The notes beneath the pieces were generated by a model. The model had not been told where the DNA came from. It saw only the letters and a program-made list of their open reading frames with translations, and made no database searches. From contig JADYYS010000053.1 in assembly GCA_020853525.1 (NCBI GenBank), positions 1-64,000 on the forward strand: DNA of 64,000 bases, in the 5' to 3' direction. This DNA is from Ardenticatenales bacterium. GTDB lineage: Bacteria > Chloroflexota > Anaerolineae > Epilineales > Epilineaceae. A program made the translations under genes and the position numbers. Shown here one piece after another: positions 9,172 through 12,498 of this stretch; within the stretch, counting starts at the first letter, position 1, and each line of letters opens with the position of its first letter.

Positions 9172-9852
9172 TTAACGCACAACCTTGAAGTTGAACATCG
9201 GCGTCCCGAGCGCGCCCATCAGCCGCAGCCAGAGCGGCAGGACCATTTCCGTCCCGCGCGCCGCCGTAACGTCGCCGACATCGACGACGTCCCGCCAGCC
9301 GAAGCTGCGGGCGAGCTCGGCGACGATGGACTTGGCGGCGGCGTCGTTGCCGCAGATCAGCAGGCTGTGGTCGCCGCCGCCGACGGCGGTCGGATTCACC
9401 ATGACGGCGGCCGTGACCGTGTTGAACGCCTTTACGACATGGGCCGCCGGCGCGGCGCGCTGGATCCGCTCGGCCAGCGAGTCCGTGTCCTTGACGAACA
9501 GCGTCGGCGGGAAGCCGGCCGAAAAGTCGAGCGGGTTCGTGATGTCGACGAGCGGCTTGCCCGCCAGGGAGTCTGCGCCGGCCTGCTCCACCGCTGCCAC
9601 CGCGGCCTGCCCGCTCGTCGCGAGCGCGACGACCTCGCCGTGCGCGGCGGCCCGCGCGAGCGTGTCGAGGCGGACGGCCGGGTAGGCGGCCAGCCAGTCG
9701 GCCAGCGGGCCGTTGCCCATCTGATCCGTCTCGCGACTGGCGAGCGAGCGCGATACGTCGCGCGTGCCCATGACGACGTCGTGGCCGCGGTCCGCGAAGC
9801 CGGCGGCCAGCGTGCGACCGACGATACCGGTGCCGAGGATGCCGATGCGCAT
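9172..9852 (-). CDS. NADP oxidoreductase, coenzyme F420-dependent type (NpdG-like)
   Basis: The 226-residue protein opens with RIGILGTGIVGRTLAAGFAD, a dinucleotide-binding Rossmann motif, followed by GHDVVMGTRD. It then has LVDITNPLDFSAGFPPTLFV and KAFNTV, all typical of the family that includes F420:NADP oxidoreductases and related imine/ketone reductases. Length fits NpdG-type proteins (about 210-230). AAGGAG lies eight bases before the ATG at 9852; the longer frame lacks a signal. It is divergent from the multicopper oxidase operon. Whether the cell uses F420 cannot be told from this window, so an F420-independent reductase remains possible. Confidence 0.85.
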   Translation of the reverse strand: MRIGILGTGIVGRTLAAGFADRGHDVVMGTRDVSRSLASRETDQMGNGPLADWLAAYPAVRLDTLARAAAHGEVVALATSGQAAVAAVEQAGADSLAGKPLVDITNPLDFSAGFPPTLFVKDTDSLAERIQRAAPAAHVVKAFNTVTAAVMVNPTAVGGGDHSLLICGNDAAAKSIVAELARSFGWRDVVDVGDVTAARGTEMVLPLWLRLMGALGTPMFNFKVVR

Positions 9853-9942
9853 GTTGGGGCTCCTTGGGTGGGGGTGGTCGGTAACCTCACGGCGGCGTCG
9901 AGGTGCCGGCCGGGCCATGACACGGGCGGCAATCATAGGCGC

Positions 9943-9986
9943 TTGACGTCGGTCCGGACATCTGACAATATTTAGTCCAGCCTAAA
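9943..9986 (+). promoter_or_regulatory. Promoter with metalloregulator-like inverted repeat for the MCO-ZIP operon
   Basis: TTGACG (9943-9948) is followed by AT-rich -10 candidates: GACAAT at 9964-9969 (15-bp spacing) or CAATAT at 9966-9971 (17-bp spacing). Just downstream is TTTAGtccagcCTAAA (9971-9986), a perfect 5-bp inverted repeat with a 6-base centre. It resembles operators of the DtxR/MntR/IdeR family, which have TTAG/CTAA half sites. The position at the transcription start suits repression. The regulator itself is not in the window. Confidence 0.55.
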
Positions 9987-10075
9987 CCCGAGCACGAGCC
10001 ATCGGGGCCATGTCTGATCCGCACGGGCGCCCGTCGCCGGCCAGCGACGACGCTCACCCCATCGGAGCAAACCCC

Positions 10076-11281
10076 ATGCGCCACCTTACCCGTCGCGCCT
10101 TCGTCCGCGAATCCGCCATCGGCGCCGCCGCGGTCGCCGGTGGCGCGCTGGCCCTCGGTGCGTCGCCCGGGCCGGTCGCCGACGCGTATACCGGTACAAC
10201 TGCCGACGCCCGTTCCGACGGCCGTTCCGACGCCGCAGCCGACGCCAACGTCGACGCTGCGGCCGAAGCCCACGGCGGCCACATGGTCCAGTCCACCGTC
10301 GGCGACGTCGGCCCGGACGCGATCGGCATCGACCCGACGCGGTTCCTCGAGACGTTCGACACCGGCACGGTCAGCACGCTGCCGGACGGGCGGACGCTGC
10401 GCGAGTGGGACATCCTGGCCTTCGACAAGCAGATCGAGGTCGCACCGGGCGTGTTCTTCCCGGCCTGGACGTACAACGGCCAGGTGCCGGGTCCGACGCT
10501 GAGGTGCACCGAGGGCGATCTGCTCCGGATCCGCTTCAAGAACGCCGGCACCCACCCGCACACGATCCACTTCCACGGCTTCCACCCGCCGAGCATGGAC
10601 GGGTTCGCGCCCGTCGTGGAGCAGGGCGGGACGTTCACGTACGAGTTCACCGCCCGGCCGTTCGGCCTCCACCCGTATCACTGCCACGCCGTGCCGCTGA
10701 AGAAGCACCTCCACAAGGGGCTGTACGGCGCGCTGATCATCGACCCGCCCGGCGGCCGGCCGCCGGCGCGCGAGATGGTCATGGTCATGAACGGCTTCGA
10801 CACGAACTTCGACGGCGCGAACGAGATCTACGCCGTGAACTCGGTGGCCTTCCACTACCAGCGCCACCCGATCCGCGTCCGCCGCGGCGATCCGCTGCGC
10901 GTCTACCTCGTGAACCTGACGGAGTTCGACCCCATCAACTCGTTCCACCTCCACGCCGGCATGTTCAAGCTCTTCAAGACCGGTACGCGGCTGGACTTCC
11001 ACGAGTTCACCGACATCGTCATGCTCTGCCAGGGCGAGCGCGCCGTGCTCGACTTCACGCTGGACGATCCGGGGATGTACATGTTCCACGCCCACCAGAG
11101 CGAGCTGGCGGAGTTGGGGTGGATGGGGTTCTTCGAGAGCGTGGATGAGGCGGTGTGGGATGCGGAAGCGGGTGCGGGTGCCGTCGTCGCGGGGAACGAG
11201 GTCGGCGCGACGATCGCGGGCAGCACGTTTGCGACGGCCGCCGAACGAACAGCGTTCTGCAACGTCGGAGGCGCCTCATGA
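10076..11281 (+). CDS. Two-domain multicopper oxidase with type 1 copper in domain 1
   Basis: The 401-residue product starts with a Tat signal (LTRRAFVRESAIGAAAVAGG), a short linker, then two cupredoxin domains. All four His pairs of a trinuclear copper site are present: H165-F-H167, H202-C-H204, H291-L-H293 and H338-A-H340. The type 1 Cys is C203 in domain 1 with H211 or H213 nearby and Leu or Met in the axial area; domain 2 has Ala in the matching position (HAH), so it lacks type 1 copper. This is the layout of type C two-domain laccases rather than of nitrite reductase. Likely roles are oxidation of Cu(I), Mn(II) or Fe(II), or of phenols, outside the membrane. ATG at 10076 has GGAG upstream. 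The next gene overlaps by ATGA. Confidence 0.9.
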   Translation: MRHLTRRAFVRESAIGAAAVAGGALALGASPGPVADAYTGTTADARSDGRSDAAADANVDAAAEAHGGHMVQSTVGDVGPDAIGIDPTRFLETFDTGTVSTLPDGRTLREWDILAFDKQIEVAPGVFFPAWTYNGQVPGPTLRCTEGDLLRIRFKNAGTHPHTIHFHGFHPPSMDGFAPVVEQGGTFTYEFTARPFGLHPYHCHAVPLKKHLHKGLYGALIIDPPGGRPPAREMVMVMNGFDTNFDGANEIYAVNSVAFHYQRHPIRVRRGDPLRVYLVNLTEFDPINSFHLHAGMFKLFKTGTRLDFHEFTDIVMLCQGERAVLDFTLDDPGMYMFHAHQSELAELGWMGFFESVDEAVWDAEAGAGAVVAGNEVGATIAGSTFATAAERTAFCNVGGAS

Positions 11282-12498
11282 ACACTGCAGTCGACACCGT
11301 AGATTCCGCCGCGACGAACCGATCGCACGGTCGAACCCTCGGCCGTGTCGGCCTCGTCGCCCTCGCCGCGCTGCCCGTCCTCCTCCTGGCCGCGTTCATC
11401 GCCTACCTGCTCTTCGACCGCACGGGCCTGCCCGCTTCGAGCGCGCCGCCCCTCGAGGATCTCACGGTCCAACGCGTCGACCTGCCGCGGCCCGGCGAGA
11501 TGGAGGTCCGCGTGATGAACGGCGGCCCGTCGCCGGTGACGATTGCCCAGGTAGCCGTCGACGACGCGTTCTGGTCGTTCGCGATCACGCCGGGCACGAC
11601 GATCCCGCGGCTCGGCAGCGCGGTCATCGAGATCCCGTACCCGTGGGTGCGCGACGAGCCGCACGAGGTGATGCTCATCACGAGCACCGGCGTGACGTTC
11701 GGCGGGGCGGTGGACGTTTCGCTGCCGCGGCCGGCGCGGGACTGGGGGGCGTTCTGGCGATTCTTGCTCCTCGGCTTCTACGTCGGCGTCGTCCCAGTCG
11801 CGCTCGGCATGCTCTGGTTCCCGGTCGTGAAGCGGATGGGCACGCGCGGCATGGCGTTCGTGCTGAGCCTGACGGTCGGGCTCCTGGTATTCCTCTTCGT
11901 CGACACGCTGCTCGAGGCGCTCGAGACGGCGGCGCGCCTGCCCGGCGGCCTGCACGGCACGCCGCTCGTCTGGCTGGCAGCGCTGCTCACCGTCGGCCTG
12001 ATCGAGGCCGTCGGGTCCGGCCGGCGCGGCGCGCGGTCGCCGCTGGCCGTCGCCGCGCTCATCGCGCTCGGCATCGGCCTGCACAACTTCGGCGAGGGGC
12101 TCGCGATCGGCGCGGCCTACACGCTGGGGGAGGTGGCGCTCGGCGCGTTCCTGATCATCGGGTTCACGCTCCACAACATCACCGAGGGCTTGGCCGTCGC
12201 GACGCCGCTGACGAAGGCGGCGCCGCGGGCGGTGCACTTCATCGCCCTGACGCTCGTGGCCGGCGCCCCGGCGATGCTCGGCACGCTCGTCGGCGCCTAC
12301 GCCTACTCGGACCTCGGCGCGACGCTCTTCATGGCCGTCGGCGCGGGCGCGATCGCCCAGGTGGTCTACGCCGTCTCGAAGTACTTGCTCGGGCTGATGA
12401 AGAAGGACGAGCTGCCGGGGCTGAGCTGGGTCACGGTGGGCGGGTTCGCGGCGGGGGTGGCGATTATGTATGCGACGGCGTTGGTGGTGGCGGCGTGA
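11278..12498 (+). CDS. ZIP family divalent metal transporter with N-terminal extension
   Basis: The 406-residue membrane protein has an N-terminal helix (about residues 24-44), an extracytoplasmic domain of some 110 residues rich in beta strands (about 50-155), and then at least seven membrane helices. The ZIP signatures GLHNFGEGLAIG and LHNITEGLAV contain the paired His/Asn/Glu metal ligands of transmembrane helices 4 and 5. ZIP proteins move Zn, Fe or Mn toward the cytoplasm. Its start overlaps the stop of the multicopper oxidase (ATGA), so the two are made together. The ectodomain is unusual and might dock the oxidase or bind metal. Substrate is not predictable from sequence. Confidence 0.9.
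   Translation: MNTAVDTVDSAATNRSHGRTLGRVGLVALAALPVLLLAAFIAYLLFDRTGLPASSAPPLEDLTVQRVDLPRPGEMEVRVMNGGPSPVTIAQVAVDDAFWSFAITPGTTIPRLGSAVIEIPYPWVRDEPHEVMLITSTGVTFGGAVDVSLPRPARDWGAFWRFLLLGFYVGVVPVALGMLWFPVVKRMGTRGMAFVLSLTVGLLVFLFVDTLLEALETAARLPGGLHGTPLVWLAALLTVGLIEAVGSGRRGARSPLAVAALIALGIGLHNFGEGLAIGAAYTLGEVALGAFLIIGFTLHNITEGLAVATPLTKAAPRAVHFIALTLVAGAPAMLGTLVGAYAYSDLGATLFMAVGAGAIAQVVYAVSKYLLGLMKKDELPGLSWVTVGGFAAGVAIMYATALVVAA

Follow-up and report, generated by a model that had tools for sequence, protein, structure and literature searches.

A multicopper oxidase and a ZIP transporter under a DtxR/MntR-type operator: a candidate manganese/iron-starvation operon

Why would a bacterium couple a two-domain multicopper oxidase (MCO) to a ZIP-family transporter, and which metal governs the pair? 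The question is raised by a locus of an Ardenticatenales bacterium (GenBank assembly GCA_020853525.1), found in the 64,000-nucleotide stretch of contig JADYYS010000053.1 that we analysed and call the window. The original prediction held that the two genes overlap by ATGA, and so they do (Table 1). It also placed a DtxR/MntR-like operator at the promoter, and TTTAGTCCAGCCTAAA indeed abuts the -10 element; with the promoter spanning 9943-9972, the operator begins on the last bases of the -10. The MCO open reading frame spans 10010-11281 (+), and translation probably starts at ATG 10076 rather than ATG 10010, judging by a GGAG upstream, an RR directly after the start and the near invariance of R6/R7. 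The window holds two palindromes with at most two mismatches, where shuffles predict 0.56; the whole 4.27-Mb genome holds only two exact copies of TTTAGN6CTAAA and no exact copy of the reversed palindrome. A divergent NADPH-dependent F420-reductase-like gene (9172-9936, - strand; TIGR01915 at 78 bits, under its cut-off of 149.8) shares the intergenic stretch with the operon.

Table 1. Features of the MCO-ZIP locus, in window coordinates.
Feature	Position	Strand	Remarks
Promoter TTGACG-18-AATATT	9943-9972	+	sigma-70-like; 9/12 matches vs 0.1 expected in shuffles
Operator TTTAGTCCAGCCTAAA (TTTAG-N6-CTAAA)	9971-9986	+	0 mismatches to palindrome; kept upstream of relatives' operons
MCO, two-domain, Tat signal	10076-11281	+	alternative start ATG 10010; Cu-oxidase_2 and Cu-oxidase_3
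Tat twin-arginine pair R6 R7 of MCO	10091-10096	+	nearly invariant in 40 aligned MCOs
MCO domain 1: type 1 His162, trinuclear His165/His167	10559-10576	+	invariant in 81/81 MCOs
MCO domain 1: H202-C203-H204, H211, axial Leu216	10679-10723	+	MCO alignment
MCO domain 2: H291-L-H293	10946-10954	+	MCO alignment
MCO domain 2: H338-A-H340, no type 1 Cys	11087-11095	+	MCO alignment
ATGA overlap, MCO stop / ZIP start	11278-11281	+	ZIP ATG 11278, MCO TGA 11279-11281
ZIP-family transporter, 406 aa	11278-12498	+	Pfam Zip, fold match
ZIP N-terminal helix 23-46, presumed membrane-crossing	11344-11415	+	structure model
ZIP Ig-like beta sandwich, residues 62-145	11461-11712	+	structure model, Foldseek; no Pfam family
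ZIP core, residues 156-405, HNFGEG (269), HNITEG (299)	11743-12492	+	structure model, Foldseek BbZIP

Failure of the gene pair or of the inverted repeat to recur in relatives had been named as evidence that would speak against the original prediction; both recurred. One scan of 84,980 species genomes returned 390 related stretches, of which we kept the best 80, mostly from MAGs; record titles name Chloroflexi, Gemmatimonadetes, Acidobacteria, Poribacteria, Dadabacteria, NC10, Actinomycetota and Proteobacteria among others, as well as Bacillus, Paenibacillus, Meiothermus and Calidithermus. ZIP adjoins MCO in 76 of these best 80 of 390, and the remaining four loci (L026, L034, L048, L064) stop at contig ends. 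Among the 76 pairs, L041 has only the N-terminal part of the transporter and L077 has one gene between; by automatic starts, 70 of the 76 lie within 60 bp of each other. In a set of 60 genomes (this one and relatives) the MCO was present in 9 and a ZIP with the N-terminal domain in 10, including all 9; ZIP adjoins MCO in all eight of the other MCO-bearing genomes, with the operator exact in four, at one mismatch in three and beyond a contig edge in one. The MCO also matched 144 plasmid records, and in all nine that we opened a gene annotated as 'ZIP family' or 'metal (cation) transporter' directly follows it, with a DtxR-type regulator near the pair in four of the nine.

The inverted repeat is conserved at the same place. 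Among the best 80 of 390 stretches, the exact site lies upstream of the operon in 36 loci (37 sites in 61.8 kb) and a one-mismatch site in 15 more, while elsewhere in the same loci the exact site occurs twice in 667 kb, once before a linked DtxR-FeoB cluster (L029:281) and once about 110 bp before the ORF preceding the MCO (L044:3965). Spacings of N4, N5, N7 and N8 and permuted palindromes gave no match in the operon-upstream regions, and in 29 of the best 80 of 390 loci, some cut by contig ends, the scanned region held no site within one mismatch. In 19 of 51 loci 3-5 nt separate the start of the best -10 from the site, the placement that a repressor site should have. The Microvirga plasmid copy has only two-mismatch matches. 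The plasmid copies of Rhodococcus, Chroococcidiopsis, Pelagibacterium and Paenarthrobacter are without the site, and some plasmid copies have P-type ATPase and CDF genes for neighbours, a setting like that of a metal-resistance island. These observations, and the 29 loci without a site, argue against control by Mn or Fe starvation.

Does the site also mark other metal genes, as the original prediction had proposed to check? Across the 60 genomes we examined all 64 exact sites, with genes up to 1.3 kb downstream, and 30 of them precede MCO-ZIP, DtxR, ZnuA/TroA-like substrate-binding protein (SBP), NRAMP, Feo, ZIP or ICMT genes, as against 0 of 40 control sites (Fisher p 1.7e-8); the controls were reversed palindromes, of which 43 occur in 25 of the 60 genomes and 40 were fetched. 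The p value is somewhat flattering, because the query set was chosen after reading 20 of the site regions. For three of the 30 hits (L189 twice, L100) the sole basis is an ICMT or small-membrane-protein query. The other 34 sites precede no listed metal gene, which counts against a Mn/Fe-starvation reading. A weak MCO hit inside L194 (29%) is spurious. A separate sample comprised 20 genomes with such loci, selected mainly because they carry the site, and contained 33 exact sites. The MCO operon accounts for 18 of these; of the other 15, two stand before NRAMP, two before DtxR-SBP operons and one before a small membrane protein whose kind also occurs behind a ZIP, one is next to an outer-membrane barrel gene, and nine show no metal gene. 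Pfam scans of neighbours covered 67 of the 97 proteins downstream on the plus strand and 47 of the 116 upstream, and tallied Nramp 7, ZnuA 2 and FeoB_C 2 among the 114 scanned; the ORFs came from a crude caller and some are wrong-frame artefacts. In Deinococcus D7000, a DtxR-NRAMP unit diverges from MCO-ZIP with an exact site between them. As judged from these sequence patterns, the operator is common to MCO-ZIP and metal-uptake genes across relatives and marks a putative DtxR/MntR-type regulon. Outer-membrane barrel genes of the Phenol_MetA_deg type lie beside the operon or the site in L137, L077, L021 and L025 (only L137 scanned singly), and may provide an outer-membrane metal channel.

DtxR-family regulators were hit in 40 of the best 80 of 390 loci. 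The linked regulator of L003 has N-terminal DNA-binding, metal-binding and FeoA domains, and the linked regulators of TTTAG-site loci carry recognition helices such as VAPASVTGMIKKL, SVTGM-like. L048, L072 and L073 have a divergent DtxR gene with the helix TATTM and, at the same place before the MCO, the palindrome TTTTGAN4TCAAAA with 0 mismatches; the palindrome is also found in L081, a locus without a DtxR hit, and L071 and L075 have the TATTM helix with poorer sites. This altered palindrome paired with an altered helix in a divergent DtxR group is, by all appearances, a natural operator/regulator switch. The solved structures most similar to a linked regulator include ScaR, SloR and 8pvt, the last of which we take to be DR2539. 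Linked regulators have the Asp of 'EDYL', and at what we take, in DtxR numbering, to be the Cys102 position they usually have Glu, with His in the protein of our genome (C53). The available text on DR2539, a Deinococcus DtxR-family repressor of mntH, describes it as responding to Mn(II) and Fe(II) and as having Lys in place of MntR Glu11, and does not name MCO-ZIP among its targets (PMC3327659). At the MntR Glu11 position the linked regulators mostly have Lys, and the C53 protein has Arg.

Searching our own genome for DtxR/MntR genes, as also proposed, returned two of the DtxR family. One, at about C53:72,890-73,588 and 9 kb beyond the window end, carries VAPASVTGMVKRL and is likely the partner of the operator; the other (C33) has a different helix and diverges from an ABC operon that looks ferric-type on a reading of its proteins. 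The second exact site of the genome, C11:19187-19202 (L100:5188), precedes by 50 bp a gene for an ICMT/PEMT-like membrane methyltransferase. In L192 and L189, too, an ICMT gene accompanies DtxR or the site; the Deinococcus D7000 cluster includes one, and L042 has one after its ZIP (which member matched there is a reading). Given this recurrence, our ICMT gene is probably a second regulon member; the exact sites of this genome are those of MCO-ZIP and ICMT. We found no NRAMP gene in it. In the stretches fetched around its DtxR genes, its ABC-transporter genes and its two ZnuA-type genes there is no site at up to two mismatches, which again argues against starvation control; upstream of the C27 SBP gene and of both DtxR genes, at C53 and C33, there is none at up to three.

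The oxidase itself has both cupredoxin domains (Cu-oxidase_2 and Cu-oxidase_3 matches). In an alignment of 81 MCOs, our own and those of the best 80 of 390 related stretches, the eight trinuclear ligands H165, H167, H202, H204, H291, H293, H338 and H340 are invariant (81/81), as is the type 1 set H162/C203/H211 (81/81), ligands that we assign by analogy with NirK. In domain 2 of our MCO, Ala339 stands where the HCH-type motif would have its Cys, which leaves domain 1 as the sole possible seat of type 1 copper. The predicted layout of eight trinuclear His with a type 1 Cys in the first domain alone, the arrangement called type C, is thus upheld. The axial position, Leu216 in our MCO, is Leu in 75 and Met in 6 of the 81. 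Type 1 copper sites with axial Leu have a high potential, and ours probably does too. The best fold matches of the model, a monomer, were PDB 7rab (59% identity, Foldseek E 2.5e-42) and 3gdc (54%, E 3.4e-42); 7rab is a dodecameric MCO of M. hydrothermalis, presumably Marinithermus hydrothermalis. These proteins belong to the same MCO family but are known as structures, and our literature search found no operon role for either. Assignment as a CopA/CueO copper-resistance oxidase was rejected, the scores falling far under the model cut-offs (TIGR01480, 80.2 against 478.95; NF008205, 39.3 against 525). The pair of a Peribacillus plasmid has tatA and tatC behind it (L162:7068-8031), which fits a Tat-exported MCO; and in three of the nine opened plasmid loci (L159, L165, L166) a Rieske 2Fe-2S gene lies shortly downstream of ZIP, its product being a possible electron partner.

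The transporter barely clears the Pfam Zip cut-off (35.7 against 35.1 bits), and by this score together with its modelled eight-helix fold it is assigned to the ZIP family; against NCBIfam NF003243, the ZupT equivalog, it scored 45.4 where 252 bits are needed. In the model (pLDDT 88.6, 60-sequence alignment) one helix (23-46) precedes a beta sandwich of seven strands (62-145), and then comes a core of eight helices (156-405) whose best Foldseek match is BbZIP (E 5.5e-07). The metal-site motifs are HNxGEG and HNxTEG; H269, E273, N300, T302 and E303 are invariant (73/73), and G272 and H299 are kept in 70 and 72 of the 73. No Pfam family covers residues 62-145, and the sandwich weakly resembles the archaellum stator FlaG (Foldseek E 1.2e-03, TM 0.70 of target). 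At L041:6044-6511 a membrane-anchored helix-and-sandwich protein without the ZIP core comes after the MCO, the two genes sharing 4 bases; the beta domain is retained there without the transporter and so seems to go with the oxidase.

The gene pair and its shared repressor-type site suggest that the two proteins act together to import scarce iron or manganese. Our preferred reading, to which we give a probability of roughly 60%, is a starvation operon for Mn(II)/Fe(II) under DtxR/MntR-type control, whose oxidase conditions the metal for the ZIP or guards it. A DtxR-family repressor, in this genome likely the C53 protein, would bind TTTAG-N6-CTAAA on the -10/+1 region and shut the promoter while the cell is rich in Mn(II) or Fe(II); under metal shortage one mRNA would yield the Tat-exported MCO and the ZIP importer. 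The Ig-like domain, placed outside the membrane, would most likely hold the oxidase at the importer mouth, and the oxidase would oxidise metal at the expense of O2. Fe(II) is the first-choice substrate because of the axial-Leu type 1 site and the Fe/Mn regulon, and its oxidation could either be part of Fe acquisition or spare Mn(II) the competition of Fe(II) or Cu(I) at the ZIP. Oxidation of Mn is less likely, though one study reports that it raises cell Mn in Pseudomonas putida (PMC3798386). The best-supported part is the control logic, a repressor site on the -10 that is common to Mn/Fe importers; that the oxidase works with the ZIP is suggested by translational coupling, the linked domain and near-perfect co-occurrence. 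The sequence directly shows the pair, the operator and its place on the promoter, the regulon and its linked regulators, the copper ligands and the domain layout; binding by a repressor, the metal it senses, docking, the oxidised substrate and the direction of transport are inferred. The original idea of a metal oxidation and uptake unit thus gains support from the pair, the repeat and the regulon, which favours two of the three metals first proposed, Mn and Fe. Nothing points to the third, Zn, and nothing links the site to Zur/Fur save a Fur-family gene after the ZIP in the Microvirga plasmid locus.

A stronger version, a two-part importer of a new sort in which the MCO docks on the Ig-like domain outside the membrane, oxidation is a working step of transport and the ZIP takes up Fe or Mn in the redox state that the MCO has given it, as a bacterial, ZIP-based counterpart of Fet3p-Ftr1p run by Mn/Fe repressors, is tentative and in our view rather improbable. 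We think it unlikely that the ZIP imports Mn or Fe while the MCO merely guards, oxidising Cu(I) or Fe(II) that leaks through induced importers. The CueO-type cuprous oxidases are MCOs, the neighbours of some plasmid copies include genes for CopZ, P-type ATPase and CDF proteins, and coupling on one mRNA suits a guard as well as a feeder; yet our MCO falls far under the CopA and CueO cut-offs (80.2 vs 479 and 39.3 vs 525), and the site goes with metal-uptake genes.

Copper acquisition, with the MCO turning Cu(I) into Cu(II) for import by the ZIP, has been proposed for the archaeal MCO1-ZIP pair. There MCO1 adjoins a ZIP/zinc-iron permease and both rise modestly under Cu limitation in Nitrososphaera viennensis (PMC7785015, PMC7819960), with log2FC of 0.81 for MCO1 and 1.33 for the permease (PMC7785015), which speaks against a Mn/Fe reading. 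In bacteria, cupredoxins recur among the proteins encoded downstream of the pair (6 of 67). Copper acquisition is nevertheless quite unlikely here, since the operator and linked regulator are of the DtxR type and common to NRAMP, ZnuA/TroA-like ABC and Feo genes, and DR2539, a DtxR-family member, is described as responding to Mn(II)/Fe(II) (PMC3327659). We hold it very improbable that the pair is an oxidase unit for metal resistance or for non-metal substrates (phenol, ligand), with a ZIP that is just co-located and a palindrome serving another regulator: two-domain MCOs reportedly often oxidise phenols, and some loci lack DtxR or the site, but the regulon test (30/64 vs 0/40), the joint change of site and regulator and the presence of ZIP beside MCO wherever the contig runs on (best 80 of 390) all argue otherwise. 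Known DtxR-family members sense Mn or Fe, which likewise counts against the copper reading.

How does the pair compare with known systems? Fet3p-Ftr1p is a ferroxidase-permease system of iron uptake. Like the pair proposed here, it combines a copper oxidase with a metal permease and is induced by metal shortage (PMC12218971, PMC2631029). Ours differs in being bacterial, in its two-domain Tat-type MCO and in its permease, which is a ZIP and not Ftr1, and its ferroxidase role is only proposed. Compared by published description, the archaeal pair (NVIE_000600/NVIE_000590) is also a two-domain MCO with axial Leu adjoining a ZIP permease, but it is read as Cu uptake and the available text reports no DtxR operator (PMC7785015, PMC7819960), whereas our pair has a DtxR-type one. 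A haloarchaeal MCO-transmembrane protein-plastocyanin operon is reported to be strongly raised under denitrification (PMC11218638). In the literature searched, with subscription journals mostly outside it, we recognised no paper linking MCO-ZIP to a DtxR operator in bacteria. A comparative genomics study of archaeal DtxR regulons by Leyn and Rodionov, reportedly of 2015, may already list related operators or MCO-ZIP.

If the starvation reading is true, a large group of unexplained two-domain oxidases across many bacterial phyla would gain a clear role, and one that ties copper supply to Mn/Fe uptake. It would also call into question the role in copper uptake that has been ascribed to this pair in ammonia-oxidising archaea. 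Cultured hosts such as Meiothermus, Calidithermus and Deinococcus make this role directly testable.
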